The notes beneath the pieces were generated by a model. It was given only the letters and a program-made list of their open reading frames with translations. It ran no database searches and was not told the origin of the DNA. Shown in pieces: positions 24,163 to 60,528 of a stretch of 64,000 bases of DNA (its first letter is position 1; the number at the start of each line of letters is the position of its first letter). Both the position numbers and the translations under genes were made by a program. Location: contig OX344762.1 of NCBI GenBank assembly GCA_947034895.1, forward strand, positions 14,823,501 through 14,887,500, written 5' to 3'. The DNA is from Rhytidiadelphus loreus. Lineage: Eukaryota > Streptophyta > Bryopsida > Hypnales > Hylocomiaceae.

Positions 24163-24309
24163 TATCCTCGAGTCGAGGATAATAAATAAGTAGGACACAC
24201 TGACAAAACAGGGAGCAACGCAACCTCAGTTGGAGGGTACAATTGTATACCATTTTGGAGTAGGTAGTAGGAGTAAGAAAACAAAATGTATCTTCGATTC
24301 GAAGATACC
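24163..24309. repeat. Two isolated A-type palindromes upstream of transposase A
   Basis: At 24,163-24,181 the arms are TATCCTCG/CGAGGATA around AGT, 43 bp upstream of the transposase ATG. At 24,289-24,309 the arms are GTATCTTCG/CGAAGATAC around ATT. Both arms are exact. They lie in the likely 5' leader or leader intron of the gene. Confidence 0.85.
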
Positions 24310-24456
24310 TGGCGGACAAGATTGAGAGATAATATGTATTCCCACAGTCGACATTGGAGTGTCACACTGATTATGTACATGAACTCTGTATATCAATTCA
24401 AATGTCAATGAATGACTATGTTTGTCTATGGTTATCATTCATATTCTATGTATGTA

Positions 24457-24862
24457 TGTGATTATCCTCAGGTCGAGGATAATCACACACATACATAGAG
24501 GTTCCTCGACCCCAGGATAATCTCCAACATGTCCGTGATTATCCTCGACCCGAGGATAATTTCCTACATGTTGGAGATTATCCTCGGGTCGAGGATAATC
24601 TCGGTGCAAGTTGGAGATTATCCTCGGGTCGAGGATAATCTCGGTGCATGTTGGAAATTATTCTCGGATGAAAGATAATCTTCATGCATGTTTCAGATTA
24701 TCCTCGAGCCGAAGATAATCTCCATGTATGCTTGTGATTATGCTAGGCTCAAGGTTAATCTCCTTGCATGTTTCAAATTATCCTCGAGACGAGGATAACC
24801 TGCATGCATGTTTCTGAATATCTATTCATGTTTGTGGTTATCTTCGACCTGAGGATAACCTC
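24457..24862. repeat. 40-bp-period array of A-type palindromes
   Basis: Palindromes with arms TTATCCTCG/CGAGGATAA start at 24,537, 24,577, 24,617, 24,657, 24,697, 24,737 and 24,777, exactly 40 bp apart, with further copies at 24,461, 24,501 and 24,837. Several are degenerate in one arm. Centres vary (GGT, ACC, AGC, AGA). The 17-20 bp between them are themselves related (TGCATGTTGGAGA type), so the whole 40-bp unit was amplified. It lies 350-740 bp upstream of the transposase ATG. Possibly a binding array for an element-encoded protein. Confidence 0.85.
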
Positions 24863-27800
24863 CATGCATGTATGTGATAGACAAATTTATAGTTCCGACA
24901 TTTACGACGCAAGAATCGGTTGTTCATTCTTGAACATAACATAGACAGGACAACATTTGAGATTTGACACCTGAATTCCCTAAACTCCAAGAATCGGAGG
25001 ACTACGTAATACTACATGTACCTTTGCTTAACACTGACGAGCAAGAACAGAAATCTAGCATTTAGTGAGAAGGGGAGAAGGGAAATAGAGGAACTTACGA
25101 TAACCCGTGCAAAAGTAAGCCACTTAGTCACATAAACTTGTAAATGCACTGCAAAAACATATGTTCAAAGGCCGTGCGGTAGCAATGTCTGCAAGAGGCC
25201 GCGGAGGAGGGAATACTGGAAAACACGAGAGAGGAAATGAGGTGCTCGAGGAAGAGAGTCGATGCACACACTAGCGGAAGAATGTGAGTGGGAGAATGTG
25301 AGCGGGAAATTTAACAATATTTGAAATCTTCATAATTTTCAGGGCGTAGGGGAGAAGTACCTCTTCGGATTATGGGGCCGTTGACATTATCATCCCCCAA
25401 ATAATGACAATGATGTGGAATGTGATGGAAATTTTTATGAATAGAAATGGGATCTGACGTAGTCGATCTTTTTTAGATTTTAATAGGGGGATTTGTACTT
25501 TGTGGAATTTTTGGCAGTGACCTTTTCTCCAAAAATGTGGAAATATTCTTTGTAGTCACAGCGGAATTTCGGATTTGGCAAATTTGGCAATTCATACACC
25601 ACCCACCAACCAACCATTTTTTTAAATAGTTTATTCTAATGTCTGATTTAGATGAATGTTTACGGTAGGTAACCACAGTAATTTGGCACATGTTGGGTCC
25701 AATGTGTATTGGCTATAAACAGAATTGTACGTAATGAAAGCTTTCAATAGGGAATGAAGTTTGGACTTTCGGGTTTGAGGGTTTAGGGTTTAGGGTTTAG
25801 GGTTTATGATGTAGGGTTTTGGGTGTAGGGTGTAGGGTTCAAGGTTTAAGGTTTAGGAGCAATAGCAAAGTCTTCAACAAATGTAAATTACATGCTCATG
25901 AATTCAATGTTCATTGAATTCATTCACGAATATGTTCATGAATTCATCTTGATTTTGCAAATGATATTCAAAATTCACATTTATTTCTGAAATTCCAATA
26001 TCCTGAAATTGAAAGATGCTTCAAGATTATATAAATTTTATTAGGATTCTTGAAATTTTTGAAATAAAAACAAGCAATAAAACAAAATGCCTTTTATTTT
26101 GAATATTACTAGTTTCAATTGATAAAGGATCTCCAATGTTGTGGACATCTAAATGACCGTACATGTTCAAAATTACCCAAAATCTTACATAATAGTTTTG
26201 AATCTGTAATTTAATTTTATAAAAAAAATATAGAACTTTGAGCTTCTGTTTTGAAAACAAAGAACAATGTACAATTGTGAATTTTTTAACATTCAATTCT
26301 ATAAAATGCAGTACTTGTTATGTTTTATTTTCCATAAATGTTGAAACTCATTCTAAGAAATTTGCATTTACGTATGAGCACATCAAATTCTTGCTATTTG
26401 TCTTGTACAATACATTAGCAACTAATGAAAAAATGAAGGTAATTATGTTGTTTTTATTATGTAACTAAAATCATAAGAGCTATGAAATTTTAAAGAGGAT
26501 AAGTATTGGAGATCAACAACATATTGTACTAGTTAAATTTTTGTATAAATTTGAAAGAATTATGATTCTTCAGTGTAATATATAATTTTGTTCAATTGTT
26601 TTTTAAATTAGAATGATTTGGATGAAAAAACATAAAGTTTGCAGAACACTATGAAGAACTACAATGAAAAAAAACTAAACTTTTATGAAGATAAAAGAAA
26701 TAAAAAGCACACGCTTAAAATATTTCAAAAAGAAAGTATGAGAACTAGAACTATACAAAGTAGGATCCATACTCATTTTTAAAAGCTTAATAATTATGTG
26801 AAGTGTACAAAATGTAGAGACCCATGTTCTAAGAAGTCGTCATGTCCACCTACATGGCATCCCAAACCATGATTTGGAGCATAATTGGCTTCAAATTAGA
26901 CTACTTTGTTAGTACATTGAAATGAATGATGGACTTTCCATTCATTTGCTACCAATCATTATTTTTAACTCCATCATGGTTTAGAGCCTTGAACGACTTC
27001 AATGTCACATAAATAATCTTCATGAGAGGTTCACCTCCTAGAAATGAATGTATTATAATGTATCCCATACAATGACTCGCTAAATTGTATAAAAAATTAG
27101 TACTCTACAAGTTTTAGAAATTCTTTTATTACATCTTGTGTACTTCAAACACATAATTATTCAAAAAGTGCAAGTTATGTATGAATGAAAGGCATATCTT
27201 CTAACTACAATAAATTTTTTTGAGTGCTATACTTTTATAATTTTGTCATTATAACTTTTCAATAAACAAAATATTATATTGAACTAATTCTTAATCATGG
27301 TAACATGGAATGAAGTAGTAAAACAAGCCAAGCATATGTTGAACTTTAAAAACTAAATTCAATGCTCAACAATCATGGACTTTTAATGAAGAGGGTCAAG
27401 TGAAAAAAATGTAGAAGTTTTTTTTTTCCTCATTCCACTGTGAACCCTATTCCATGAATTTTGAAATAATAGTTCTTTAAACTACAAAACATGAATACTT
27501 AATTTTAATGTTTTGTTGATTTACCAAACAAATAGCACCAAATTTATTCACTTAAGAATCCTAAATTCTAGTTCAAAATATTTTGAACTTCTACATTTTC
27601 TTTCTTGTGCCATTTAATAGTTATTCCATACCTTTTTAAATGTTTAATCTTAAAAAAATGGTGTTTAGACCTTTATAGATTACGATCATCTAAAAAGTAA
27701 AAGTTCTTTATAATTTTAAAAAAATTGCATAGAAAAAACTAAATTATTTATTATTTAATTATTTTTTTATTCATGACAATACTTTAGAAGTTTGGTTACA

Positions 27801-29050
27801 TTTACTAAACTTTGTATTTCGAATAAAATTTTAGTATATGGAATGCTCAAAATCTTACGTAAGCCTTGAATAGGGTTTGAAATTTGGAAATTGTGTTTTG
27901 GTGTATAAGTTCTAAAGATGCTCAGATTCATTTGAAACTTACAATGAATTCCAAGAAGCTAAAAAAAAACCCTTGGTTATTTAGAGTGTTAGGTACATTA
28001 CAAATTAGAAATACTATTGATTAAATTTTATTCAAATTTGTTTAAATTAGAAAATATAAACCCCCCAATGGATATGGAATTTTTTCCAAAATTCTTGAAA
28101 TAAGGAAATGTCTACATTACATGAAAAAGTCTAAAAGAGATAAATTATGGGATGAGAAGAAATGAAACACACTTTGCACAATTGCTTCATACATGTCTTC
28201 AACATCTCTTAGTCCCATTACGTGGACTCTTTACCTTCTTTAATCCCTAAACAACTGCTAAGCCATTTCTTGGTAAATGAATGAGAAACAATCTTGCCGT
28301 ACTGGACACAAATGTAACTATTCATCATCCAAAATTTATGGTGAAAAATAAAGATCAACTACAATAGTTTGTCTTCCAATTAGAGTTTCAACTACAATCT
28401 GTTGATGTTTCATTTTTTTAAGCCAACAATTTGTACGGTGACAAAACAAATGATTTCCATGATGACTGTCCAGACATTCAAAGGTTATTTTTTTTTTTTA
28501 AATAGGAACATTTAGAGAGCCCAAATGTCATGGGGTTGAATTTGTGGTTGAATTTTCAATTCTTCAAAATCAAATGCTACTTTGAAAAATAGGGACCTAC
28601 AAAAATTGAATTGGATGAAGTTCTCTTACATTTTGTAGACCATGCATAACGCTAGACCATTTTTTGGTTGATGAATGACAGAAATCTCTTTGTGTCGGAC
28701 AAAAATGCAACTATTCATCCTCCAAAATTTGAGTGCAAAGGAAAGATCATCTACAGTACTTTCTTTTCATATGAGAACTTTATCATTTTTTTAAACAAAC
28801 AATTCGCATGGTGAAAAAATAAATGATTTTCATTATGACCCACATGCTGTTCAAGGGTTCAAGACACCTACGTGTATAGGACTTGAAGCTTAGAAGAAAT
28901 AGGTTCTGGGGAGGCAAGTTTGGCGACATACATTCCGCAAACTAGATTTTGGAGAGTTAGTAGGCTTGGCAAGGTAGGTTTGGGGAGGTACAAAGGTCAG
29001 GATAGTAGGTTCAAAAAGGCTGTAGGGTAAGAGGAGTAGGTTTGGGAAGG
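24863..29050. other. AT-rich core of element A, no gene seen
   Basis: About 25,060-25,330 is a little less AT-rich and may hold the transposase leader or promoter on the minus strand. From 25.9 to 28.9 kb the DNA is strongly AT-rich with only short frames. An imperfect repeat is visible at 28,240-28,470 versus 28,640-28,850 (TTTTGGTTGATGAATGA-type and CAACTATTCATCMTCCAAAATTT motifs). No coding region supported. Confidence 0.55.
25771..25857 (+). repeat. Telomere-like tract (TTTAGGG type) in element A
   Basis: Three exact TTTAGGG units are followed by variant units (TGTAGGG, TTTTGGG, TTTAAGG), G-rich on the plus strand. Element B has the corresponding tract at 57,050-57,103 in the same orientation relative to its genes. 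It is interstitial, so not a chromosome end. Telo-box-like motifs also occur in plant promoters, which is an alternative role. Confidence 0.8.
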
Positions 29051-29219
29051 ACCGAAGCTGGGGAAGGAGGTTCGGGGAAGGAGGGTTGGAACCAGGGTTG
29101 GTCCGTCGTCCCTTTCCTCCGAAAGTTTCCCAATTTTTTTTCACGAACATTTTTCCAGCTTCCGGCGTGGGTGATTCTCTGTCTTCAATCGCGTTTTGTT
29201 TTTGTAGCTTTGGTTTGGG

Positions 29220-29645
29220 GCGCGCGGGGTTTAGGGCGTCATAGAGTTCGACCTTCAGGCGCGGTTTAGTTCAGTCTTCTTGAGGCGCGGTGTCTTCCAG
29301 CTTCAATCCAACTTCAGGCGCGGTTTAGTTCCAGTTTGAGGCGCGGTGTTTTCAGCTTCAGGCGCAGTGTCTTTCCAGTTGAGGGTGCGGTTTCTTTGCA
29401 GTTTGAGGCGCGGTGTTTTCAGCTTCAGGCGTGGAGTTTTCATTATTTATGCGCGCAAGTTTTCAACTTGAGGCGTGGAGTTTTCAACTTCAGACGCGGG
29501 GTTTTCGATCTTCAAGTGCGGGGGTTTCTCGATTCGTGCACGGGGTTGCACAGGAATTGCACGCAGCAGTGTGAGTTTCCAGCTCCAGCTGCAGCACAAG
29601 TTTCCAGCTCCAGTTTCAGCGTGACTTTCCAGCTCCAGTTTCAAC
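29220..29645 (+). repeat. G+C-rich imperfect repeats, probable leader of the cargo gene
   Basis: Units of the form TTGAGGCGCGGTGTTTTCAG and CTTCAGGCGCGG recur about every 30 bp. Farther on, CCAGCTCCAGTTTCAGCGTGA recurs. An open frame of 123 codons here is a consequence of the repeats. Downstream, sequence typical of a plant leader intron follows (TTGCATTAGGGTTTCTGCAG near 29,866-29,885). I read it as 5' untranslated exon or promoter-proximal DNA of the plus-strand cargo gene starting at 30,964. Confidence 0.45.
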
Positions 29646-30150
29646 GTGAGTTTCCATCTTCACACTTGAATGCACCAAGTTTTTTGATTTATTCTTTGTG
29701 TATGTAGTTTTTTTTTTTGTTCTTTGGGCATGTAGTTTGCAATTATTCATATTCTTGTTTCAAATCATTGTTGTGTTTTCAAATTGTTTATCTTGTTCCA
29801 ATTTCCATGCCAGTGTTAGTTGCTTAGGTTTTAGAATTCGGGTTTGTGATTTTTGTTCATTTGTCATTGCATTAGGGTTTCTGCAGAGTCGACTACATCT
29901 GGAAGTGTTGAAATTTTTTTGAAGCATTTGATAATTTGCTGCAGGAAGTGTGTAGGAGGTGAGGAACTTTTCAATTTCTGTGTCTACCATTGCTCTAGGT
30001 TTGAATGTGTGATATCATTTTTGTTTCTATGCACGTTCTAATTGAATCAAGATTGTAATCTATGTTTGCATTCTACATGAGCACAGATGATTAGTATTAG
30101 AAATAGGGTTTCTGTCTTCATTTTCTTCAGTTATTCTTCTTTGAACAACA

Positions 30151-30910
30151 GAAATCATCTTCGGGTCGAAGATAATCATCTTCGACCCGAAGATAACCTA
30201 CATGAACACAACTAATGAAATACAAAAACCACAAAACTAATAAAATACAGAAATTGACGGTCGGCCCCTGGATAAATAACCACAAAACTAACACAAATAA
30301 AAAACACATGAGCTAAATAAGAACCAATTATCCTCGGACCGAGGATAAATAGTACCAAAAAAAGTACAAATAGAATACACCAACACTAATTAAGAACCAT
30401 TTATCCTCGGTCCGAGGATAAATGACAACGAAAACAAGTCAAATAAAATACACTAAAACTCAAGAAGAACCATTTATCCTCGGACCGAGGATAAACGGCA
30501 ACAAAGACAACACAAATAAAATAAACCAACACTAATTAGGAACCATTTATCCTCGGTCCGAGGATAAATGACAACGAAAACAAGTCAAATAAAATACACT
30601 AAAACCCATGAAGAACCATTTATCCTCGGACCGAGGATAAACGACAACTAAGACAACACAATAAAAATAAACCAAACCAAATTAAAAACCAATTATCCTC
30701 GGTCCGAGGATAAATAGAAATCCAAGATCGTAGTTACCAATCTTAGTTTATGTGATACTATCTATCCAGGATCGTAGTTTTCAATTATGAATATAGTCTG
30801 CTCATTCTGCACTGCTCTGGATATCATGTGCAGCCTGCTTTGATAATGGTCCACTCGAAATGCATTAATCAAGAATTCTCTAATCTATTATCTTCGCCTC
30901 GAAGATAAAT
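30151..30910. repeat. 72-73-bp-period array of A-type palindromes
   Basis: Two adjacent copies lie at 30,155-30,197. Six copies then start at 30,327, 30,399, 30,472, 30,544, 30,618 and 30,691 with arms TTTATCCTCG/CGAGGATAAA and alternating centres GAC/GTC. A TTATCTTCG/CGAAGATAA copy follows at 30,887-30,910. Arms are exact in nearly all. The spacers are also similar (ACAAATAAAATACACYAAYACT type). The array ends about 50 bp before the cargo ATG, mirroring the array upstream of the transposase. Confidence 0.88.
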
Positions 30911-30963
30911 ATCAAATTATAATTCTGATCATAGTGGTTTACTATGCTCAGATACATATCAAC

Positions 30964-33900
30964 ATGGCGGCTGAGTCTGAATACGACTACTCAGCTACTC
31001 TCCCATTCATTGAGCCTTTCAGAAAATGGGTGGAAGAGGAGCCCTTCATATCGGAGATGCCAGAGCTATACGGCAAGCTCTGGCAATTCAAAGCCGTCGT
31101 CGAGTCCTGGACATTCGGTGTGAACTAGTCCAAGGATTACGTGTACCTTCGTTACCGAGTGAAGGATACAGGGATGTACGTGAATTGGAACTTAAGTGAG
31201 AAGGTCGCCCTCATTGAGAACCATCAGGACAAGTACCTTGTCATCACTCTGCAAGGAATCGACAACACAGGAATCGAAACCAAACATACTCATTCAATCG
31301 TCTGCCATGAAGACGACCCTATGGGTGTTTTTGACTTCGACAACCTCATCGTCGACTTGCACTCGAGAAACCTTGACGCCTTGGCAACAGACTTTCATAC
31401 AAGATACCACCCATGGCATAAAAAGAACGCCAGGGTGACGTCGAGAAAAGTCGGATACATGTTTCATAAGCTGACAGAGGAAGCTAAGAAACATGTACAG
31501 AAAGGGCCTGCTTGAGCGAGTCAAGGTCGTGGTCAGCAAAGGCCGGATAATGCCGATGAGACGAGATCAGCGTCTGGTATGCACGGCCGCACAAGGAGTA
31601 GAGGAAGTGGGAGAGGAACAGCCCGCGCGCAGGCCCAGAAGAGAAAGAACCCGGACACGAGTACATGTGAGCCTGGTGAGAAACGCAAGAAACCCGTGAT
31701 GGACAGTCGTCCTACAACCGCCGGCAGTTCAGGTTCGATACTCACGAACGTGAATACCCGGAAGCCAGCCGGTACGCAGCCAATCGAGAAACACGAAGTT
31801 GCAGTTGCATATCAGTCGGAATTTTGGAAGAAAAATGGCAAGTACTTCATTTTTCATCCACATGTATTCTCTGTTAATATCAAGCAATGCTTCCTCGCCC
31901 CAGAAAGATACATAATCCGGAAGCTTGAAATGAAATTGGTGGATGAGCAAAAGGAGACCCTCATTCATCTTGGTTCAGAGCAGCAAAGGCAGAAAATTTG
32001 CTTGACCCCTATGGACGCCAGTAAGAAGCTTTTGAAGGAGTGTCCTAAGGATTGGGATTCCATCAAAAACGGTGGCTTCTACATAATTGACGGCCAACAT
32101 AGTGTCACCGCAGCCAAAATGCTTCAACAAGGCGGATGCTGCGAGACACGCAAGGTCGAGTTGCAGACATGGGAGGTTGTGATCGTCTGGACCAGAGACC
32201 CGACACAGCTCACAGATATTTCGAAGTGGTACAATGCCTCCAACCACCTCATTCATAGTCAGCCAACATGGGGGAATCAAATATCCGCATGTAGGCAGGT
32301 TTGGAAGGCGCTCAAGCGGCCTACCAACACAGACAGCGAGGGGCTGGTGAGAGGGAATAAAGCAGTCTTCAACGTCTCAGCATATAAGGTACCCCTTTAT
32401 TATCTTCGAGGCGAAGATAAATTTCATGTCCATGCTCTAGTTGTCCTCACGTTTTCTTATAGAGTGCTGCAATTTCTGACTAATGATTTTGTGGTCTCCA
32501 AAGTAGTTATCCTCGGGCCGAGGATAATTGTTTCAAAATCTGTATATCTTCTAAGTGAACTAGTATGCATGCTGATTCCATGAATATCTGTTTGAGCAGG
32601 AATTTGTGGACGGTGTCATGATTCGATACGGAAGCATCAACCCGGACAAGGAGGGCGCTCAAGTCAAGTTGGCGTCCGATGTCAAAAACGAAATTCGAAT
32701 AATAACCTTGGCCGATGAGACCTATCAGATGTGGGAGGAGTTCCTCACAAAGCACACTGATGGATCGCTGATTGATCCCGTGTCACAAAAATCCTACAAC
32801 AGCGCGAAGACCTTCAACGCAAAGAACTTCTCGCTCAAAAGGGAGTTCTTCAAGCACATGGGACACTTCACGGACAAAGATCTCAAGGATTATGTCCTCC
32901 ATCTGCTTGGGAGAACAGAGGGACGCACACGAGACTATCCAAAGGTCTCTGTGGGGGCGGCAAAGATCCTGTGCGAGGACAACTATAAAGCCGAGCACTG
33001 GGTAGAGCGCAGAAAGCGTAAGAAAGTCATCGTGGAGGAGTTCATGGCCCTCGATAAGTCCTTGAAATTCAAGGACAGAAATGGGAATGTCATCGATGTG
33101 AAGTGGAGGCAATGGAAGCTCGACAACTTCTTTTCGTCGGCATCGTAGGATTTCCTCCTCACGGCAATACCCAACCAATTCTTCGTAAAACGCCTTACCA
33201 ACGAGGCGAAGAAGAAGACGGCCATAGACTACAAGGACAATCAAAAATTGTCAATGGTCTATCCCATGTTCAAGACCTTCTTGAAGATGAAGAAGCGAGT
33301 GGAGCCATCGGGAGGAGATGTGTTTATCCGGGGCCACCAATGCTATCCCCAAGGTCTGGTGACGACCCACATATGGCCCTACGTCAACAGAGAACTTGGC
33401 CTCGCTGTGATTGATTTCAGAATCCTTCCAAGGCCGAATCCGGGATCTGGTGACAGTCCACCGTGCTTGCCATTATTGAATTTTCTGGATGGTCATCTGA
33501 GGCTGGTGTTGTCTACTCCAGACGTGTGGTTATGGATTCTCGGGAATTCATATGACATCGACGCGGCCAAGAAATTTGCCGCATCGAAGATGTCAGGGTA
33601 CGAAGTCAGGGTGTCCACCTACCTGCTAAGTAAGGCTGAGAGGTTGGACAACTTGACCAACCAAGCAATGCCACCCCCCGTGAAGCTCCTTTTCGTCATG
33701 AAGAAACGCCATGACGGGGAGCCAAAATACAAGGAGGCAGTGAAGAAGGTATATTGCACCGATGACATACCTTACTACACTGATTTCCATAAGAACACGG
33801 AGGCAAAATATAGGGTCTATCCGAGTGAGCTGAGGATGGAGTTCTATATCGACATTCTTCAGAGTTTTGCCGTGACGGGAGAGAACGTCATCGGCGTTTA

Positions 33901-35508
33901 TACAGGCTCCAAGTTCGTGATCGCTGCAAAGGTGCGGCTCTATGATTTATCTTCGACTCGAAGATAATTGCTTAGGATCTCTTTCTGGTGTATTATTATG
34001 TTCGATTGTTCTGTTGTATGCATCTTTATCCGTTGTTGTGTTATCTTCGGGTCGAAGATAGTTTCCTAGGATGGATCATTATAGTGTGAAAAAAAGTATT
34101 GACAACTGCTTGTTGTATTGTAGATGTATGGCCTCTATTACTATGGCCTTACTGAGAGGCATGCTTCACAAAAGCTTCGAGATATGGTGACTTATGGCAG
34201 TAAATTAGACATGAACGATTTCTGCCATGAGAACTCGCCATATCTTCCTGGTTACGTGCGTCCGTGTAACCTTGAAACTCCAGATCTGGACTCGGATTCC
34301 ACACCCTCCATCGATCGCAACGTGGAAGCCCCACGACAATTTCCTACTGACGAGGGGGCTGCCAACCTTGGGATCGATGAAGTTGGGACAAATACGAATG
34401 TTGTCCAAGGAGGAAATGTAGAAATCAACGAAGAGGACTTCCACGTAGGGAGACGCGGGCCAGAATCAGTGTCGAAGGACAAGGAAGAGTCAGATGCAGT
34501 CGCTCGCAAGAAGAAGAAGATGGCAAGGAAGCCCGTGGATGGCTTCATTCCGGACATTATCATCAGCGACGTGGAGGACACGTATTCGGATTTGGAAGAC
34601 TTCAACTACGATAGTCCGACTGATGATGGTGCGGGAACCTCTAAGGAAAGCCAAGGAGAACCCTCACTTATAGAGCCTCAACCTCCTCGTGATTCCACGT
34701 CCGGGGATGCTACAGATCCAATTCAAGTTCCTCTTCGTCCAGTGAAGCAGGAACTTAAGGATTTTTGGAGGCAGAGAGAGGAGAGGAAGGCCTTCAAGAG
34801 GGCTGAGGAGGCAAGAAGAAGGGCTGACGAGTTGGCGGAGAAGGAAGCGTTGAAGAAGGAACTTGAGAAATTGCGTGAAGAGAATGTTTCTCTCAAAACG
34901 CAATCACAAGATCCCTCTACTTCTCAACCTAGCCAACTTGATGCGCATGACGTTGGTGGTGCTTTAGAAGCCACTGCTCACCAGTCCACTGATCTGAGCA
35001 CTGAGGGTTATCTTCAAGGTGAAGATGATTCTCTACCTCCCGCCCAAGAGGATATTGCTCCCCTTCTCCTCCTCCAATGGAACAAGAGCAGGGTTTCTCT
35101 CTTCCAGTTGATAGAGCAAATCAACAGATTCAAGAAGAGATTGCTCCCCTTGGAACTGGGACAGAGGGAGCTAATACTGTTGTGGATTATCCTCGAGACG
35201 AGGATAATTTGAGCCAGCTCCCTACATTGGAGGCGCAAGCGGAGTCGGTCCTTGGAACTGGGAATGAGGGAGTTGATAGGGTAGTGGATTATCCTCGAGG
35301 CGAGGATGATTTGAGCCAGCCCCCTACTTTGGAGGCGCAAGCGGAGTCGGTCCCGGAGACCCAAGAAGAGGGTGATGTTGTACCGGATCTTGTCCCCCTT
35401 CCGACTGAGCCGCGTGCACCGGAGACAGAGATAGAATTCGAAAATCCCCCAAACGACGACGAAGAGACTGTCGACTACGGGGATTATTTGGATGATGAGT
35501 TCGGCTAG
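30964..35508 (+). pseudogene. ParB/DGQHR-like cargo gene of element A (exons 1-3), with in-frame stops
   Basis: Exon 1 runs 30,964-32,388, exon 2 32,600-33,931, exon 3 34,124-35,508. Both introns are GT-AG and phase 0, and each holds two A-type palindromes. Exon 1 encodes a basic region (MHGRTRSRGSGRG) and FYIIDGQHSVTAAKML near 32,074-32,120, resembling the DGQHR/ParB-sulfiredoxin nucleotide-binding loop. Exon 2 aligns over its length with element B (HLLGRT, ERxKRK, ELRMxFY). Exon 3 is acidic with a charged coiled-coil-like stretch (EKEALKKELEKLREENVSL). In-frame stops occur at 31,126 (TAG), 31,513 (TGA) and 33,146 (TAG). A one-base frame change is needed near 35,060. Exon 3 ends TAG directly before a GT donor, so it may once have spliced on to the HAD exons. 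Function unknown; DNA binding is inferred. Confidence 0.7.
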
Positions 35509-35877
35509 GTACACTCTCGTCCATCCTCAGACCCCTACGATATTTCATGAGTCTGTCTAATGTGATATGATGGATGTTTGTTTTGGCTTCCATCATGTTC
35601 ATAGTGAGAGACTCTCATGTCGATTCCTTCTGTCTGACAGGAGGGAGTGTACAGTCTCTGATTGTGAAGCGTGGAAGAACTGCCACTCTGTGACTGCATT
35701 GTAGCATAGTGTAGATACCGCAACGGGCTGTAGTTGGTACTTGTATACAATCGGCTAGAGATCAACAAAACCGTTAGACCGAGTGTATCATAAATTATTT
35801 TGAAATAAATATATGTCAAACTTCTCTTCAATGCGTGTAGTGTCTAATGAATTGATTTTGTCCATGTTTGTGCCCAG

Positions 35878-36865
35878 CGCGGACAACTTAGAAGTGTGCA
35901 CCGCCCGTTGGCACTCAAACAATCACTTAACGAAGGGGTTTTGCAGTCGCTTAGTGGGGTTCCATGCTTTTCTCCGTTTTATGGGTCGCCTGATTCTGCC
36001 TTTCAACAGGTAACTACATCTCTTTCGTGTTGTGTTTGATCAGGTAGTAACGGCAAGTCGAAAAAAGAGAGTGCCGCGGAGTGTGTCCTCGTTAGTGGTC
36101 CAACCGCGACAGAAGTGGTTGAATATCGTGTTCGATTTGAACGGAGTGCTGTGTGAGAGCCAGGGTCAAGGGCCGCATAAGAAGAAAAAACATTACACAG
36201 TTCGAGATAATATATTCTTCCATCGAACCCCAACCCTCATTGGGACGAAGGTCGTCTTCGTTCGTCCCAATGTGCGCGAGTTCTTAGACGAGGTTTCTAA
36301 GATTTCGAACCGCGTCGTAGTTTGGAGCTCCATGTTCAAGAAGACGGTGGAGCCCGTTGCAAGTTTTCTCTTGCAGAATTGCAAGGCTCCCTACCACATC
36401 CTAGGTCAGGACAACTGCAGGAGGGTAGAAACCTCGGAAGGGAAATTTCTTCATCAGGCTGGGAGTCCGTGGAAGACTCTGCTCTTCAAAGTGCTTGATG
36501 AAGAATTGTTCCTAGACCCTCAGGATCCCAACTCCTTCAACAAGGACAATACCATTCTCATCGATGATTCTCCGCAAAAGGGCATCCTCAATGAGAACGG
36601 GAATTGCATATACCTTGAGAGTTGGAACCCGTACATGCGTGGAGACAATGTGCTCGTCGGCACTCTCATTCCGTGGCTGAAGAAACTACACGAGGAGTGT
36701 CCACTCGGACGCCTGCGTGAGTTTGTAGATCAGAACCGCATAGGTGTGGCGCCCTTGGTCACATCAGACGATCAAGCCAATTATATATTAGATGGGATGA
36801 GGATGTCCGTCAAGGCATTTGAGTCGCGATTCGTGTTGCGGGGGATGAATCTAGTGATTGAATAA
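35878..36865 (+). CDS. FCP1-like HAD phosphatase domain of element A
   Basis: Main exon from an acceptor (TGATCAG) at 36,044 to TAA at 36,865. It carries VFDLNGVLC (HAD motif I with the nucleophile Asp kept and the usual second Asp replaced by Asn), VVVWSSM (motif II), and NTILIDDSPQKG (motif III/IV Asp pair). This is the layout of the NIF/FCP1/SCP-type phosphatases that act on phosphoserine, such as the RNA polymerase II tail. A preceding open segment at 35,878-36,009 has acceptor and donor signals and matching phase, but only 34 bp separate it from the HAD exon, short for a plant intron. In element B the domain probably splices from the ParB-like gene, so this may be the 3' end of one long gene. 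Substrate unknown. Confidence 0.7.
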
Positions 36866-37059
36866 GAGAGACAAAGGAAGAAATAGACTTCTCAGTGTCT
36901 CAGTCAATCATAGAACTCGTTGTACATTATTCTGGGAATACGGATTTTTATGTACATTTCATTCTTGTGAATTAGTAAAATTTCGAACTTGTAATCATGT
37001 TTTCTCACCTCTTTTGGTTGTACTGTTTTGTTCAACATGTGTTTGTCTTCCATGTTGAG

Positions 37060-37118
37060 TTATCTTTGGGTCGAGGATAATTGTGGAGGATGTGTGTTAT
37101 CTTTGGGTCGAGGATAAT
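37060..37118. repeat. Two A-type palindromes before the small cargo gene
   Basis: Copies at 37,060-37,080 and 37,098-37,118 read TTATCTTTG/CGAGGATAA around GGT, one mismatch between arms, in a 38-bp direct repeat. They sit between the HAD exon and a splice acceptor at 37,152, so probably in an intron. Confidence 0.8.
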
Positions 37119-46129: not shown

Positions 46130-47609
46130 CTATAGACATCGTTCCGGAGGCGGACAAGGACGGAAATAGATGTCTTCTTTGGTGAGCTCCTTGCGCTTCG
46201 TTGCGCGCGTCGTGCGTGGTTCCAGGAAAAGAATGACACGCCCGAAATCATCCACTTTCCGTTTAGTATGAAGTCTATTGGAGACCGCGAGCGCCCTCTG
46301 CAGTTCCTTGTACATGGATTGGTCGAGATGATGCTTGAGGTGAATCCCCCCCACAGCATTGTCTCTACGGAAAGAAAAAAATTCCCACGGCCTCTCTACA
46401 TGCAGTCTCCTAATCCAAGGCAGGAGTTCAAATATGAGAACCCCGTCTCTCGACCCCTTTCCGACAAAACACCACGAGTCTAGGAGCACTACGTTCGAGG
46501 GATCATTCATGAAGTGTTTCTCTGGGCTGTCGTCCACTATTATAGTATTCTCCGGCGTGAAGATGGACCCCTTTAGTTTGTACAACCTCTCCAATGGCTT
46601 GAGAAACATGTCCTTGCGCGATCCCCTCAACCTGTAGTTCTTTAGCATGCCATTCCCGTCTCTGGATTTCATGACGGTACATTGTTCTTGGCCGAGGACA
46701 CCGAAGGGGGGCGTCAGGCCGTGGAAGAGAAAATCAACAGCGAGCTGGGCGTACCATTGATCCATGGAGCTCCAGATTACGACGTTTGCGAAGGAGGTCA
46801 ATTCCCGCACGAACCTTCTTACATGGGGTCGGAAAGTGACCCTTTCCATCGGGAAGATGAACCTCTCCGCTCTCAGGACTACCTCATAAAGAGAGCACAC
46901 TCTCCTTTCTTTTATGTGATATCTCATATCATCACAAAAGCAAAGAAGTCCATTCAGATCAAGAACGACATTGAGCCACTTCTTATTGAATCTGGATGTG
47001 AACGGACTACGAATATGCACATCCGCCACAATATCACCTACGACTCCCTCACTGGTCCCCTGCTCATAAGTAACATAGACACATCCAAAATTAAACCGGG
47101 TCAAACTCAATTGCGAAGGATACACCGAAGTGGGGCTTAACAGACTGGAGAACACATCGATGAGGCGAACAAAAAATCAATATTCTGAAGTTCAAACCAA
47201 GGTCAGCCCCCACAACATGCACAACACTACAAAGATGGCAAAGTACTTACCGCATCTTCCAGCGAAGCATTTGGAGGAGACGATTGAGGATCTTCTTGTT
47301 CACCGCAAGGAACAACATCAATCGAAACCTCCGCCACTTTGTGTATGACTTCGAGATCCTCCACGACATCGGGGATGACTTCAAGATCCTCCACGACATC
47401 GGGGATGACTTCGAGAACCTCCACGACATCGGGAATGACTTCGAGAACCTCTGCATCGTGTTGAGGAAGAGGATCATCGTGAACCTGATCAGCCGTAGGA
47501 CACGAAGGAGACGCCTCTGGTGGAGAGTCATCCATAACAGGGCCAAGACATGGAGCACCAAAGTCGAGACATTCAGACCCTGCGACTGTGGAAATTGAAC
47601 ACGACAAAG
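46130..47609 (-). CDS. FCP1-like HAD phosphatase domain of element B with acidic repeat exon
   Basis: The exon 47,609-47,251 has acceptor and GTAAGTAC donor signals and encodes an acidic segment with four ~10-residue repeats (VIPDVVEDLE). It joins in phase to 47,059-46,130, which carries VLDLNGLLC (motif I, second Asp replaced by Asn as in A), VVIWSSM (motif II) and NTIIVDDSPEKHF (motif III/IV), with stop TAG. The phase at 47,609 fits a donor at CCAG-GTTGTTCC near 47,793 in the ParB-like exon, so one long ParB-like plus HAD gene is likely. The intervening intron would hold a B-type palindrome at 47,747-47,767. The extended basic tail after the domain (TRATKRKELTKED) is absent in A. Confidence 0.65.
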
Positions 47610-47746: not shown

Positions 47747-47767
47747 TTCAACTCGAGTCGAGTTGAA
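47747..47767. repeat. B-type palindrome in probable intron 3
   Basis: Arms TTCAACTCG and CGAGTTGAA are perfect around AGT. It lies between the third exon of the ParB-like gene and the acidic-repeat exon. Confidence 0.85.
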
Positions 47768-48876
47768 ATATATGCTAAGAAAAGTCACGAGGAACAACCT
47801 GGAGGAGCATCAGTCACAGGGTCCTGTGACTGCTTCGCATGTACCCCTTCCGCCGGGGTCCTGTCCATTACATCCTCGGTCTCAGGATCGAACGGGATTT
47901 CGACTGAGTCCTCTGCCATGTCGGGCTGACCTTCATCCTCGACCTCTTGATCCTGCTCAACCGCATCATCTTCTGGGTCTGTGGCGGGGGAGGATGGAGT
48001 TGGCTCCGACAACACACCCTCGGATGCCGTCGTATTATGTGACGGATTCGGGGACGACGTCGGTTGTTGCTTGGCACTGTCAGCTGATGTGTGAGGCCGG
48101 TTGCCGAGCATGAGCCGTGAAGATGTCTCTGCCGGAGACATTTGTTGCAGTGGCGCAACCGCTAGCAGAAGCTCCGGATGGATTTGCCTCATGGTTGACA
48201 CCATCAACTGCGGGAGGGTGGCGACAATGTCCTTAAAGAACTGCATGTTATCCTCTCTGGCCCTTCTATTTTCCTCCCGCATCTCCTCCCTCGCAATTCG
48301 GTTTTCTTCCCGTATCTCATCATACACCGATTTTTGGTTATCGGGGACTGATGCAGGCTCGGGATTCTTCCTCTTCTTGGACATGCGCCTACTGGATACA
48401 GGAGTCCCCTCCGGTTGAGTGGAACGAGGCGTGGCATGCATCTGCGCCGAGGTATCCGAGGAACCCCTCATATCGCTAGAGGCGGGGACCCCCTCCGACA
48501 AGCCTGTCCCCTGGGGAAGCAAGTCCCCAATGATTTCGGTTGCAGGGTCCTTCCATTCCTCTTCTCTCTCGATGTCGTCGCCTTCATCTTCTCCAAGGTT
48601 TATGGCGACATCTCTTTGAGATCCCTGGATGGCGGCTTCCTCGGCATCCGTCATCCTCTCCTTGCCTTTTGCTGAATTGGAGGCACCCTTACTTAACTTC
48701 CTCGGATGAACTCTTTGATCCACGAGGTAACTTGCATCAAGAAAGTCATCCTTGTCTAGGTACTCGGAAGCTAAAGCCAACTTCAAGAACTTCTCATTGT
48801 ACTTGGAGTCTCTAATGATGTAGTGCTCTAGTGACAGCATCTGAAATGATCAGGTAGACAATGAGGTCAGAAGACC

Positions 48877-48942
48877 TTCAACTCGACTCGAGATGAAAAG
48901 GATTCACAAAGCAACACGCAATTCAACTCGCATCGAGATAAA
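48877..48942. repeat. Two B-type palindromes in intron 2 of the ParB-like gene
   Basis: Copies at 48,877-48,897 (TTCAACTCG/CGAGATGAA, one mismatch) and 48,922-48,942 (right arm degenerate). Both fall in the 128-bp intron 48,968-48,841. Confidence 0.75.
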
Positions 48943-50358
48943 TATCAGGACTGTCCATAGGAACTCACCAACGCGGCACAAATGATTTTCCCCCCAGCGA
49001 AAATGGAGAGAACATTTTCCTGAGGCCCAGCAAACAGACTCAACACCTGCAAATAAAAATCCATGCGCAATTCGGTGTTGTAGATTCTGTAATCCAGGTC
49101 GTTTGTGGACCTTGACCTGGAATACCGTCCGTCTGGGAGGGCCTCAAATTTCTTGGGAATCTTCTTGTCCAGCCTAACCCCCTTCTTGATCAAGAAGATC
49201 ATGTGCACGGACTCCTTTGCCTTATTTGATTTTTCTGGTGCATCGCGAATCCGCTCCCAAACTGAAGGAACGTACTCAGAAAAATGTACGGTGTACACCT
49301 CGCCGTACGCTGAAGTCCGGATGTGCGACCTCAGATCGACCTGAAGGTCCATGTCCCCGCAGATCCACAACCAGACACTCGGGTCCTTTACCGACGGCTA
49401 GTCCATCGTCGAGAGAACACCCATAAAGGGCTCGAAGTACAGATCGGAGTCCCTCGTCCTCTCCCGATTGATGGATCCAGGGATATTACGGAAGTCCATC
49501 ACTGCCAATTTGATACTCTGGCCGACTTCCTCCTCCCATACATTGGTGTCCCACCCCACGAGCTCGTCATCGCTCATATTATACGGCCGATAGAAGGCTC
49601 TCCCCTCGGGCTTGGCAAACTTGCCCTTGCTGCCCATAAAAATCTTGAAAAATTGGGCAGCCATCGGTGAGAGCTCTTCGATGCTCTTATTCTTGTTGCA
49701 AGGCATTTTTGCAAGGGAGTAGAATTCATCCGACGGACCTGAAATGAGGGTGTTCTTCGTGGCCCTCGTGACATTGTACATCCGCTTGAAATCCTTCCAC
49801 TTGTCCCTCCGAAAGCTGCCTTCGTTATTGTACAGGCTCAAACTTTTCCTCAGAAAGAAGATCTGCCTCCTGATGATCTGCTTCCTCTTGCACCGCTCAA
49901 GCCACTCCTTGGCTGTGTAGTAGTCCTCGAGAACCCCGGTTGACTTCTTCATCGTCACCTTCGGGTGCGCCAACTCTCTGTTCGGGGTCCTACCGAGGAG
50001 ATGCAAGGCCAACCTCTTGAGATCCCCCTCACTGCAGTTCCCAAGCCACTTGAAGAACTCCCGGGACATGACCCCATCACGTTCTTGATCCCATCCCTTT
50101 GTCTGCTTGAACTTCAGCAAGGTGTCAGGATCTGTGAGCTGCCCCTGGGAATTCATGGATATGATCTCGCTCCAAAGGTCATACACCTCCTTGGAAGCAG
50201 TGATGATCTTCAGTTCGTTATGGATGTCCAAGTCCTTCTCCTTCTTTCTGCTCAATGCTCCTTGGGACTTCTTGACATCAATCATAGCAAATCTCAACCT
50301 CACTGCGTCCGTAAAATCCTGTAGATACATTCAATGAAATACCATCAGTCAAGGTTCA

Positions 50359-50535
50359 ATCAACTCGACCCGAGTTGAATTCAAGCACGAGGGCAATATG
50401 AAAAAGGTATTCAGCAAGTAGTGGATTCATCTGGAGTTCAATATTCAAATCACTCGAACGGAAATGAATGCGTTCATGAGATAAATAATTCATTCATTAT
50501 TAAAAGAAGAAGAATTCAACTCAACCCGAGTTGAA
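50359..50535. repeat. Two B-type palindromes in intron 1 of the ParB-like gene
   Basis: Copies at 50,359-50,379 (centre ACC) and 50,515-50,535 (TTCAACTCA/CGAGTTGAA, centre ACC). Both lie between exon 1 and the acceptor at 50,319. Confidence 0.8.
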
Positions 50536-52041
50536 TTGCATTACTTATCCTAAACCGCTTCTGGTTGTTCATATCCTTTTAGGTCTTGCGAGGCCTATCT
50601 GCAGCCCGGCCCAACTCGGTGGGCTCTTTGTCAGGAGGAGGGCAACCCATCTTCTCCCAGACAAATCGGGCTTCCATGATGTTGGTGGCCCACGTCGGCA
50701 TGAAGTTCTGAAAATGATTCACCCGATTGTAGTACGCGGAGATTTTCCTGATCACATGGTCGTCCTTGTTCCAAACTACGAAGCACTCCCATGTTTTAAA
50801 CTTCTCCGCCTTTGCTTTAATCGCGGGCATCACCTGCATGCGCTTCGATGCAGCCACGGTGTGCTGCCCATTGACCATCCAGAAACGCATATCTTTGATT
50901 TCTTCAAAGGTCTGCGGCTTGCTCCTCAGGTTCTGGGGCATGACGCACAACGTCATCTTCTTGTCGGGGTCGGGCATGTTCAACAAGAAGTTCAGAGACC
51001 TCATTATTCCCTGCTCCTCGAGGCTCCGGATGTTCAAGTTCTCGGGGGGCGTCTCCAACTGCTCAAGCGGAATGACGAACTTCATTCCGATTGCCGGCAC
51101 ATATGAGTCAGTGCACTCCTTCCAGTATGCCTCGTATGTCCGGTTGGAGTCCTCAAAGTCTATTTCCTTGATGTCCCCTCCCAGGTCCTTCGGAATATCC
51201 GTGAGGTCCGAAACCATACTCTCATCAAGTTGATGAGAGGTTCCGGCTTTGGCGGTTGTCTTGGGGGTACCCTTGGCGCCGGCTCTCTTGCTTCCCGACG
51301 GAGGGGTCGGTGATGGATTTCCTCTCGCAAACTTCTCAGTTTGCTTAAGCCTCGTGTGACTCCGCCCTGTTTCTGGTGTCCCGATCGCCAGAGAACTAGT
51401 ACCTGGGTTCTGACTGCTATAGTCCCTGACCACGGAAGTAGGTCTCATGTCCTTCTTCTTTTGCATCAAGAGCACTTGCCCTCTCTCGAAATCCAGCTTC
51501 AAATGGTTCAGGCGGGACAGCAGAGTTTTGGGTGCCAGGGGCGCGCCGTTATTTGCCACCCACTTCTTCTGGTCGATGGCGGTTTGAATTGGGGCTATGA
51601 GGTCTTCGTAATCAGTGTTCATTAGACTACGAAGATACTCGGAGATGCTAAAAATTGTCTTCCGGGCATCGACCTTGTAGGAGAATATATATGGTTTCTT
51701 CTGCTCGGGGTCCACCGTCTCGCAGGACACGAATATAACCCCACCCGGTCCACTACTGAACTCCGTTATTGACTCCGTCAAAGAAACGGGGAGGGTGGCA
51801 TCAGACTTCCTGAACTTCGTCCTGAATGCCAAGTGATTGGTTATCGGAACTAAGATGACGGTCCAGTACTCGACTTCATGGGGATCTTGCCACTCCCAGC
51901 ACTCCCAGAATCGTGTCATCGATAAGGTCATCGACTTGTTCTGGGGGGATGTCGTAGTGCTTGTATGTGGCTTGGAGTTTCGATCTCTGGCCCTCCATAT
52001 TTGCATTATTTTCAAACGAGAATATTATCAGGTCAAGCATT

Positions 52042-52330
52042 TTTAACTCGAGTCGAGTTGAATATGTGCCTCAGGATGATAGTATGTTGTCCTCTTTTTG
52101 GTTTTCTCTACATTGGTTCTCATTTTCTGGTCTGTATTTCCAATACTTCAACTCGAGCCGAGTTGAATTTGTCTAAGAGGCTCGTGCAGTGTGAGTTCAT
52201 TGTTATTTTTTAATTTCGAATATGAGTTGTTGCGGATCAACTCGACTCGAGTTGAAATAACAATAGTGGATTACTGTTTCATTTTGGTTTTCATCTCGAT
52301 ATTTGGTAATTTAACTCGAGCCGAGTTGAA
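52042..52330. repeat. Cluster of four B-type palindromes upstream of the ParB-like gene
   Basis: Copies at 52,042, 52,147, 52,236 and 52,310, each 21 bp with arms TTYAACTCG/CGAGTTGAA and centres AGT, AGC, ACT and AGC. Spacing is 74-105 bp, not strictly regular. The nearest is about 40 bp upstream of the proposed ATG at 51,999. Confidence 0.88.
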
Positions 52331-57049: not shown

Positions 57050-57103
57050 GAAGAACCAGAACCCAGAACCCAGAACCCTAAACCCTAAACCCTAAACCCT
57101 ATG
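57050..57103 (-). repeat. Telomere-like tract (CCCTAAA type) in element B
   Basis: ACCCAGA variants lead into three to four exact CCCTAAA units on the plus strand, so G-rich on the minus strand. With element B being inverted relative to A, this is the same element-relative orientation as the tract at 25,771-25,857, and the same position between transposase and cargo genes. Confidence 0.8.
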
Positions 57104-58850
57104 TCTAGTTGCAATTTACTGATAATATAAAGGTGGAATTTGAAAAGCCCCTTTATAAAATAACTATAATCATGAAGGTCATGTATTCATGGTTTTTCTT
57201 TTAAAATTATGTGGTTTTCTATTTGTAGAACCTATTAATTTTAATTTAACATTCTAGGAAGCTTGATGATATAAATCTAAATTGATTTACTCAAGCTGTA
57301 GTTTTATTTTGCCCCTCCCACCCACCCTTCCTTTTCCTCCAAAAATTAGTAAGGTTTTAAGCAAATATAGCCACTATATATTTTTATGTTAGTAGGAGGC
57401 TTAGCTTTGGATACTTATAAGAACTCCATTAGAACTGATTCCATCTTCACTTAAATTTGTAACATCACTATGATAGTTAGAGATTGTTAAAACTTATATA
57501 CCTAGTCTAATCATGGGGTGTGATTGGAATTTGGTCTGTAAGATATGTACAAGTCTAGGTGGCCTAACTTGTCCTATATATGTTACTAATGGCCTAAGTT
57601 GTGGGATATACCAACTTTATTAAAGCTAGTAACTAATAGTACCACTCTTTTACGGCTCATTGGTTAGCCAAGGAAGTGGTGATTTATGGAACTTTTAGAG
57701 GACACTTGCTGCTGCAAGTGGGCTTAATTTGAATTGTGTTCTTCCCCCTCTTTTAGTCATAAAAGCAGGGAAATTTTGAATTGTCCAAGTAATGCTTTTA
57801 ATATTAAGTGGGCTGGATTTGAAATTTCCCCCTCTTTTTTGAAATTAACCTAAAACTCATTAGGGTTATGGAGGCACCATGCCCTAGCTGAGAGGTTGCA
57901 GTATATAAGTGGCTTAAACTAGTGGTGAAAATGTGCACTTTGGTTTACACTTGGCTGCTTGCATTGGAGTTAGAAGGTAGTTAGGAGGATTTGAAGTGAG
58001 GGAGGCACAGATGGCTTCTTCTCAGGTCCTTTGATTTTTACATGTCTTATCTTGCTTTGGCAATCTATGGGACTTCTTAGATCCTACTTGTTTTGCTTTT
58101 AGATGTCATGTCCTGCTCTGGCAATTTGTGGGAATATGATATGTCTGCCATTTTCTTATGTGAAGCTTTGAGTTTTTTGCTTGGTACTTTTATTTCTTGC
58201 GATTGCTATAACACGCTGCTGTGGACTGAAGACACTTGACATACGTTCTCTAACTGACTACTTGTTTGTTGGATTGCATGGGTGTAGGTGAGGTTCACAG
58301 CCTCTTGGATTAAAACTACCTTTTGCAAAACTCTATCCAAAGTTTTTGGCAAGACTGTGATTCATACTGGGTGGCCTAAACATATTGGCTGTAGATTATG
58401 GCATTAGTAGTTAAATAGTCTTGGATGATTTGACATTTGACATTATACATAACTGGATTTGTACCATCATGGATCAGTTGTGATTTGATCCTTACTTATA
58501 AGATCTTATTAGCTTCTTTTGGCTCCCCTTAGAAGTTGATTGATGTGATGTTTTTATTTAAATCTTGGCTTAAAAATTATGTCTTGAGACTTGTTTGTCT
58601 TGTTTAGTCTGGGATTTTTACTTATTAGAAAGCTTAGGAAAAGCCCTGTATAGGGATGTCCCTCCCACCCTCCCGGGTTCCCTAAGATCATCAATTAATA
58701 AAAAGACCAGCATTTTCGGAACTCCGTAAGGTCAAAAAGCACTAAACTCGCATTCTGAAAAGGACTCAACAGTCGCTTTTCCTAATGGTAGTCCACGTGA
58801 AATAGACAAATCCTAAACAAGGAATGCGTTTACTTTCCGGCACTATTCAT
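57104..58850. other. Unassigned region with promoter-like features
   Basis: GCAGTATATAAGTGG near 57,897-57,911 looks like a TATA box. A short leader follows, then ATGGCTTCTTCTCAG before a GT donor near 58,012-58,027, a start-plus-donor arrangement common in plants. No downstream coding exon was identified. It could be an alternative promoter for transposase B, a solo retroelement remnant, or chance. Confidence 0.3.
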
Positions 58851-60528
58851 CAGCGTCTTATAGGGAAAAGATATTCTTCTCCAAATTTGGCCCGCGACTT
58901 CCAGCGGTAGCCGTTTCAAATGGAATCCAAGTTTTCCCGCTGAGGATCTCCCGCCCAAGTGCGATGCTGCGTCTCTTCCGCGGCGAAATTTTTCCGTGCC
59001 ATTTTTCAGTTTTGCATTTGTGTCTCCACCTAGTATTCTTCACGCCGGTCATCGAGGTTCGCTACCTTGTTCTCACGTCTCCTTTTATTTTGTTGATTGT
59101 CGGACATTTTTGTAGTTCTTATTGACACAGTAGTGTATGGGGTTTGACTTAACGGCTGTTCATTCTCAGGTCAGGAATAAGATAGCATTTGTGATGAAGA
59201 AGTGAATGCATTGTACCACCCACAGGTTTCGCGTTGCGTGATTGAACATTTTAGTTTTTCAGTGCTCTGGCCTGGTGTCGGAATGGGAGATTGCATCGTA
59301 GAAGTTCCTTTATTCTCCTTGATTTTTTCCAATCCTTCTCACAGTTTTCTATGCATCGTATCACACCCTTGTTTCGCAATGCTTGACTGAACTCTACGGT
59401 TTCGGAATACTGTGACGAAGCCTGTAAATGGTCATTGCACTGAAAAATTCCTGCATTTGCATTGTATGGTTGCAATCCTTATCATTGTGTGTTCTGTGGA
59501 CTTACGTAATACTCACAGAGTTCTCTACAGTCCTCCGGTAATTGCTTCGGGTTTTCCGGAAGAATGATTATTTAATGTGAATCAAACCATTTGAACCCGA
59601 AAAATCAACTAGACTCCAGTTATCTAGAATTCAACTCGACTCGAGTTAACAACATATCCACAGTCACAGTAAAGAATAACTGTGTATACTGTTCAACTCG
59701 GCTCGAGTTGAATATATCCTCCCCTGAAAATATTTTCATGTTAATTTTTATAATGTAGAAACAAATTACCACTGTTTACCTATTATTCAACTCGGCTCGA
59801 GTTGAATAGATAACATTCAGCGTTCGGTTTGGTCTTTGTTGTAAATCCTTGATATAGAATAATGAGTTGTCGTCTTTTATCTCGACTCGAGTTAAAAGGC
59901 TGTCTTGTATAATGTGAAGCAATGATGGTCAATGGTAATTGTTATTTTTTTTAAATACTTATTTGATGAAGATTCTATGGATGGAACTCGTATCATATCC
60001 GAATGAATTTATTTTTTCCTAATGTCATGGTGACCATATAAATTCCTATTTAAACTTTTCAGTTAACGATTAATGTGCCTACAAACTATTTAATCCTATC
60101 AGGAGTTTTTAACTCGATGCGAGTTGAACCCTGAATTCATAATTAATTTCACATGCATCTTTTAATATGAACTAATAATTGAGAACATTGATACACAGGG
60201 GTACACGATTGAATGGTCACAATATAAATGTTTAATATTATTAATTTTTTAATGTATTTGAAAATCTAGAGTACAAATGTTTGATGGTTGCTGTTAGTAC
60301 TTTTTCAAGTGAAACCCGGTGTTGATTGACTTCTTCTGTACAAGAAATTGTGTTTGTAATTGGGACCTGATACTCTATTATTCAATGGTTTGTATGGATT
60401 CATTATTGTCTGGTCATTCAACTCGGGCCGAGTTGAATTATGGATACTTTGGTGCCTTGCTTCTTCCAAATGTTTTTTGATATGTTTGTTTGGTCCACTC
60501 ATTTGTTTGTGGTTCTCTTACAGACGTA
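58851..60528 (+). promoter_or_regulatory. Leader exon and leader intron of transposase B
   Basis: A G+C-richer block (58,860-59,060) resembles a 5' untranslated exon. The transposase ATG at 60,529 follows a polypyrimidine acceptor (TTCTCTTACAG) at 60,523 by 5 bp, so a leader intron probably spans most of the interval. The B-type palindromes at 59,630-60,437 would lie in it. The exact donor is not determined. Confidence 0.4.
59630..60437. repeat. Six B-type palindromes upstream of transposase B
   Basis: Copies at 59,630, 59,692, 59,786, 59,876, 60,108 and 60,417, each 21 bp, arms TTCAACTCG/CGAGTTGAA with one or two substitutions in some (GTTAAC, TTTATCTCG). Centres ACT, GCT, GCT, ACT, ATG and GGC. 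The last ends 92 bp before the transposase ATG. This corresponds to the palindromes in front of transposase A, with the other sequence type. Confidence 0.88.

Follow-up and report, generated by a model that had tools for sequence, protein, structure and literature searches.

Clade-specific palindromes as putative binding sites of a transposon-encoded regulator in two related large transposons

How do two related transposons come to carry palindromes in the same arrangement but in two different sequences, and what reads them? The question arises in a 64,000-nucleotide stretch of contig OX344762.1 (positions 14,823,501 to 14,887,500), here called the window, which holds two large related transposons, A and B, in mutually inverted orientation. 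Each carries a DUF7869 transposase-like gene transcribed one way and, transcribed the opposite way, genes for a ParB-fold (DGQH) protein, an NIF/FCP phosphatase-like protein, and a small Ser/Pro-rich protein. The palindrome of element A is TTATCYTCG-NNN-CGARGATAA; that of element B is TTCAACTCG-NNN-CGAGTTGAA; both are 21 bp long. The answer offered here, to which we give about an even chance of being right, is that these palindromes are putative binding sites of a transposon-encoded regulator, likeliest a dimer of the ParB-fold protein, that activates or protects its own clade.

In the window, the A-type palindrome occurs 12 times exactly (TTATCCTCG-NNN-CGAGGATAA), 26 times at up to three mismatches, and 31 times at up to four; the B-type occurs five times exactly and 15 times at up to three mismatches. 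Two of the 31 A-type sites (21446, in transposase coding sequence; and 37533, in fourth-gene coding sequence) look like chance matches, which leaves 29; three others (24500, 24658, and 24738) are decayed members of a 40-bp tandem array. The preliminary description held each palindrome to be specific to its element, and so it is: all 31 A-type sites are in A and all 15 B-type sites in B. (At up to five mismatches, three B-like sites appear outside B, one to the left of A and two within it.) By comparison, 200 Markov shuffles of the window, scored at up to four mismatches, gave means of 0.23 A-type sites (maximum 2) and 0.26 B-type sites (maximum 3). There are 39 copies of the string TCGNNNCGA, where shuffles give 5.7 (maximum 13): 24 are in A, 15 in B, and none elsewhere in the window. 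All but two of these copies (37995 and 60888), 37 of the 39, fall within recognisable palindromes.

The inner TCG-NNN-CGA, described earlier as shared, is indeed common to the A and B types, and the full scaffold, TT-NNNN-TCG-NNN-CGA-NNNN-AA, fits the window sites as well as the arms reconstructed for types A to D, which are introduced below. Across the 29 A sites, both arms are altered at nine positions, eight of which remain complementary, and a single arm at 23; across the 15 B sites, the corresponding numbers are one (complementary) and 12. Symmetric arm change occurs, then, but one-sided change is commoner. The three-nucleotide centre is purine-N-pyrimidine in 24 of 29 A sites and 13 of 15 B sites. 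Among 100 core CpGs examined in A, B, and the related contig L011 (see below), ten of the 13 altered ones have become TG or CA, which suggests that methylation reaches the sites in decayed copies.

The two elements distribute their sites in parallel: at the transposase promoter, at the ParB-fold promoter, and, two apiece, in introns 1 and 2 of the ParB-fold gene. Element A has 12 sites within 780 bp upstream of its transposase gene (24162..24858), mostly in a 39-40 bp tandem repeat, and nine within 867 bp upstream of its ParB-fold gene (30155..30908), six of them perfect and spaced at exactly 73 bp. Element B has six upstream of its transposase gene (59630..60437), where, as in A, they occupy some 0.8-0.9 kb, and four upstream of its ParB-fold gene (52042..52330). 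The multi-exon ParB-fold gene of A (30964..35508, plus strand) contains sites 32400 and 32507 in intron 1 (32389..32599, delimited by GT..AG and by homology to B on either side) and sites 33947 and 34041 in intron 2 (33932..34123). That of B (47785..52003, minus strand, also multi-exon) contains sites 50359 and 50515 in intron 1 (50319..50544) and sites 48877 and 48922 in intron 2 (48841..48968). (Exon boundaries in both genes were judged visually, using splice signals and the homology between A and B.) The middle stretches, 5.2 kb in A and 7.3 kb in B, are free of sites. The remaining sites are not parallel: two in A fall in the last ParB-fold exon, where 102 bp are duplicated (35187..35309), and two decayed ones (TCG to TTG) form a tandem repeat of 37 bp that follows the phosphatase-like gene and precedes the fourth (37060..37117); in B, a single palindrome (47747..47767) stands between the ParB-fold and phosphatase-like genes. 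The clustering originally reported, upstream of both divergent genes and inside introns, stands except for the two A sites in coding sequence (35187 and 35289). The whole set of sites has been replaced in sequence while most positions were kept, even though fewer than half of the transposase residues are common to A and B (48.5% identity over 921 columns).

Do other members of the family have palindromes of their own? Relatives were collected through protein searches (115 matches to the transposase, 28 to the ParB-fold protein of B, and seven to that of A). ParB-fold open reading frames (ORFs) often continue past the exon-1 splice donor into intron 1, so intron DNA is partly deducible from the amino acids. 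Of 35 ParB-fold proteins, 28 were marked as passing the donor, and in 23 the tail is seven residues or longer. A perfect 9+3+9 palindrome with the TCG/CGA core is possible in 15 of these 23 tails, and its arm is unique in 12 of the 15. Shuffled tails gave a mean of 0.31 (maximum 3; 2000 shuffles), and for segments taken elsewhere in these proteins the mean was 0.10 (maximum 2). Chance solutions are not absent: before the donor, five turned up among 14,338 residues, and the 115 transposase proteins, with 80,912 residues, yielded 25. In a spacer control using TT....TC arms only and seven spacers, the expected spacer fitted 15 of 23 tails (0.2 on average in shuffles), five others fitted none, and spacer 4 fitted three near-identical rows only (P0148-P0150). 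The possible palindrome in these distant proteins, with a TTYGGRTC arm and a centre one base shorter, was left uncounted as one lineage among seven spacers. The tail sites begin 8-30 nt past the splice donor. Several reading frames are used per type (three for B; two each for A and C), so the solutions are not protein motifs.

Two new arms were deduced from the tails, TTTAGCTCG and TTCAGRTCG. Type A was assigned to P0144 (a unique solution) and P0145 (one solution out of four), which alone among the four close A relatives have a marked tail; type B to P0122, P0124, P0125, P0128, and, with one solution out of two, P0116. P0145 and P0116 were thus typed despite other possible solutions. Type C (TTTAGCTCG) is found in P0135, P0136, P0137, P0140, and P0141, and type D pools two arms, TTCAGGTCG in P0131 and TTCAGATCG in P0138. 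P0129, with four possible arms (TTCTACTCG included), was kept separate. For most relatives, then, the type is deduced from protein, not DNA.

A maximum-likelihood tree built from 37 ParB-fold rows, 17 with an assigned type, served for comparison with these types; some rows are close kin, so not all count as independent, and long branches lead to both the A group and P0148-P0150. Every one of the four types occupies one side of a single branch. All groups jointly require four changes, the minimum, and none of 200 shuffles was as low. Single-type shuffles were as low in 0 of 500 cases for B, 0 of 500 for C, three of 500 for A, and 21 of 500 for D; taken singly, the clustering of type D is weak. 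Random mixing of types within the family, which the preliminary description named as evidence against its proposal, is not seen among the typed relatives, and no shuffle of the 200 was as ordered. The proposal itself, recognition by a coevolving element-encoded factor, gains support from this agreement between types and tree.

Type C was deduced from protein tails before any L011 DNA had been seen, and was then confirmed there as DNA. A scan of bacterial and archaeal genomes returned this one relative, L011 (CADCWO010000071.1, 1-4327), a 4.3-kb contig filed in a cyanobacterial bin but probably a mis-binned eukaryotic contig, whose DUF7869 gene is 46% identical to that of A. It contains six C-type sites at up to four mismatches, one of them perfect and three upstream of the transposase; shuffles gave a mean of 0.02 (maximum 1). 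The N-terminal extension of transposase P0064 also allows a C palindrome, and P0064 and L011 belong to the same 17-row transposase branch, apart from A and B. Protein scans of viral contigs found no relatives; palindrome pattern scans of these contigs hit one and nine of them, with one site each, and the hits were taken as chance.

Which protein might read the palindromes? The ParB-fold protein is a natural candidate on structural modelling: an AlphaFold model of exon 1 of the B protein adopts the ParB N-terminal (CTPase) fold, and palindromic sites are present on the same element as the gene. The A and B proteins share about 27-35% identity over matched stretches. A PDB sequence search with the ParB-fold alignment gave only an unrelated match (E 0.45), and one with the exon-2 pair gave none; no methyltransferase match was found in the scanned parts of the window's ParB-fold protein.

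Several points weigh against the ParB-fold protein as reader, or against the evidence from relatives. The fold match comes from the structure of the B protein only: PF02195 (ParBc) was matched by none of 30 members at E up to 5, and one member matched DGQHR weakly (E 0.0085). No helix-turn-helix was identified, and searches of Pfam and of PDB sequences matched nothing in the exon-2 region. Nonsense codons in both ParB-fold genes of the window mean that these copies may be dead. The tails were delimited by hand after being viewed, and eight of the 23 lack a full palindrome (P0126, P0127, P0132, P0142, P0143, P0148, P0149, and P0150), although P0132, P0142, and P0143 allow eight of nine pairs. 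The P0064 match is one of the 25 solutions in the 115 transposase proteins, but the only one with a known arm. Finally, covariation cannot single out the reader protein, because only four transposases are typed.

Element proteins that read repeated, element-specific motifs have known counterparts. TnpA of En/Spm is one, and it is tied to methylation of its promoter; its sites lie near the element ends, in subterminal repeats, and the genes of En/Spm differ from those of A and B. In Arabidopsis VANDAL elements (PMC5735166, PMC10398659), noncoding regions contain many copies of a short motif, often in tandem, that varies between related families with an element-encoded protein, VANC; related VANC proteins and their tandem-repeated motifs change together (PMC5735166). 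A and B likewise have a short noncoding motif that varies between related elements. VANC21, however, reads the nine-base YAGTATTAY (PMC5735166), whereas here the site is a 21-bp fixed-scaffold palindrome and the element a DUF7869 element with a ParB-fold protein; no MULE-type transposase model matched the elements' transposase at E up to 0.1, the match being to PF25273. KorB of plasmid RK2, a ParB-family CTPase acting at operators OB (PMC11790492), is the nearest analogue for a ParB-family protein that controls promoters of its own element. As with KorB/OB and ParB-parS, A and B combine the ParB N-domain fold with sites near promoters of one mobile element; KorB, in contrast, belongs to a bacterial plasmid and has a demonstrated CTPase clamp, a DNA-binding domain, and a 16-bp OB (PMC11790492), against a 21-bp site and a predicted fold here.

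A precedent for the type of protein, by analogy, is provided by Sola1-1_Ec32, a 21.5-kb giant transposon of Ectocarpus that encodes an accessory protein combining ParB-like and DNA methyltransferase parts (PMC12477816). Similar ParB-like methyltransferase proteins are reported in green and red algae, and the authors propose that proteins of this type attach to the transposon encoding them and modify it (PMC12477816). Like A and B, Sola1-1_Ec32 is a large eukaryotic transposon whose ParB-like accessory gene is transcribed opposite to the transposase; it differs in its Sola transposase and in the fused methyltransferase (PMC12477816). The open-licence PMC literature was covered for ParB-like proteins with transposable elements, plants, or algae; moss and bryophyte transposons; Ceratodon DNA transposons; and coevolving anti-silencing. 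No mention of DUF7869 was found in it, nor, among the titles and abstract openings listed, any account of such a palindrome/ParB-fold system.

Together, these comparisons suggest a model. A dimer, most likely of the ParB-fold protein, would read the fixed-scaffold palindrome: TT at each end and TCG...CGA around a three-nucleotide centre, with the variable 4-bp block setting the clade. At promoters and introns of its own element, the regulator would raise or protect transcription, probably through the exclusion of host silencing (CpG methylation). Each clade would have changed its whole site set along with its reader, such that no factor would serve any clade but its own. What the sequences show is the presence of the sites, the parallel arrangement in both elements, a scaffold that stays constant, and types that agree with clades; binding, the identity of the binding protein, and an activating or anti-silencing direction are our inference. 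Protection or activation is favoured because of the VANC analogy and because core CpG changes are mostly to TG or CA. A more elaborate and decidedly tentative version, which we think more likely wrong than right, is a ParB/parS-like clamp in a eukaryotic transposon: a ParB-fold nucleotide switch would load at the clade palindromes, slide over the element, and mark it as self against host silencing, with the 4-bp block acting as a self/non-self code among related elements.

The protein might instead read its sites in order to repress, in a KorB-like autorepression that limits copy number and from which relatives escape by changing their sites. The clustering of sites at promoters fits this, as does the reach of KorB, which represses plasmid promoters even when its operator is as much as 1.5 kb distant (PMC11790492); but sites also occur in introns and after genes, and VANC, the closest eukaryotic analogue, counters silencing (PMC5735166). 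We consider autorepression rather improbable. The DUF7869 transposase, not the ParB-fold protein, could be the one that binds, with the palindromes serving for regulation or assembly inside the element. Clade-wise types are consistent with the four transposases that were typed (A, B, and two C), though with no statistical weight (200 of 200 shuffles were as low), and some transposases are known to repress their own promoters. The palindromes nearest the ends of A, however, lie 3.7 kb (left) and 1.5 kb (right) away, or 1.0 kb on the right if the doubtful 37533 is counted, so a transposase reading its own ends fails to explain them; and the A ends carry another repeated motif, AAATTGAGAC. We regard a transposase reader as unlikely.

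Two further explanations do without a DNA-binding element protein. Hairpins formed in RNA, in introns and leaders, could control splicing or RNA binding; the nine-bp arms would allow it, and the tail sites lie close behind the splice donor. Yet dense arrays are found upstream of genes, far from splice donors, and the purine-N-pyrimidine centre extends the DNA dyad; an RNA function seems very unlikely to us. A host factor (a methylation reader, or small-RNA or heterochromatin machinery) might recognise the sites, with elements drifting or escaping by altering them. The TG and CA changes at core CpGs do indicate that host methylation probably reaches the copies; but the set switches as a whole, clade by clade, while scaffold, spacing, and positions persist, and the retention of near-perfect dyads is hard to square with escape. 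We see a host reader as a remote prospect.

The remaining features of the window concern the elements themselves and their surroundings. A (20464..38574, about 18.1 kb) is bounded by 40-bp terminal inverted repeats (20464-20503 and 38535-38574) that are 95% complementary; inspection by eye revealed no target-site duplication. B starts at about 45 kb and its right end lies beyond the window edge; no clear terminal repeat was found, and two short matches to the A ends lie near 44877 and 44962. AAATTGAGAC is present three times at the left end of A and once at the right (20487-20580 and 38542), and once elsewhere in the window; it is a possible transposase site, unrelated to the palindromes. Plant-telomere-like repeats (TTTAGGG / AACCCTA) lie between the divergent genes of both elements (25767-25857 in A; 57056-57101 in B), oriented alike with respect to the transposase.

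The transposase-like gene of A (21271..24120, minus strand) is an intact ORF of 949 aa; that of B (60490..63363, plus strand) has one in-frame stop at 62167. Against a curated PF25273 (DUF7869) cut-off of 26 bits, A scores 154.8, and B, split by the stop, 24.5 and 112.3 bits. The ParB-fold gene of A, with homologues P0144-P0150, has in-frame stops at 31126, 31513, and 33146 and an apparent frameshift near 35060; that of B has in-frame stops at 49398 and 50579. With stops in both ParB-fold genes and in the B transposase, the window copies are at least partly degraded. The main exons of the phosphatase-like genes (36014..36865, plus strand, in A; 46130..47176, minus strand, in B) match PF03031 at E 3.9e-16 and 2.7e-13, respectively, and their products are 30% identical. 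At the usual catalytic place of both, DLNG replaces the DxDxT motif customary for NIF/FCP phosphatases. The fourth, Ser/Pro-rich gene of A (37153..38076, plus strand) has a conserved stretch in common with its B counterpart (45202..45996, minus strand; matched stretch 45814-45942), at 42% over 43 aa.

Outside the elements, a piggyBac-type transposase ORF lies at 9639-11036 on the minus strand (DDE_Tnp_1_7, E 2.4e-67). In the left part of the window, a GGGGCGACC-like unit recurs in short tandem arrays (12741-13047, 16185-17192, and 19725-19794), one of which yields long ORFs that are probably spurious. Rfam at the gathering threshold and ARAGORN gave no match over the window. The mosses Ceratodon purpureus and Physcomitrium patens are the sole organisms named among the 115 transposase matches, and the host is therefore probably a moss.

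If the proposed regulator exists, transposons with their own coevolving address code would extend beyond Arabidopsis VANC, to another protein fold and another kind of element. The modular scaffold, with constant TT and TCG and a variable 4 bp in at least four versions, would make the evolution of specificity directly testable, the clades being natural reader/site swaps. Moreover, a land-plant transposon with a ParB-fold regulator would carry the clamp mechanism known in bacteria over to the question of transposon resistance to silencing.

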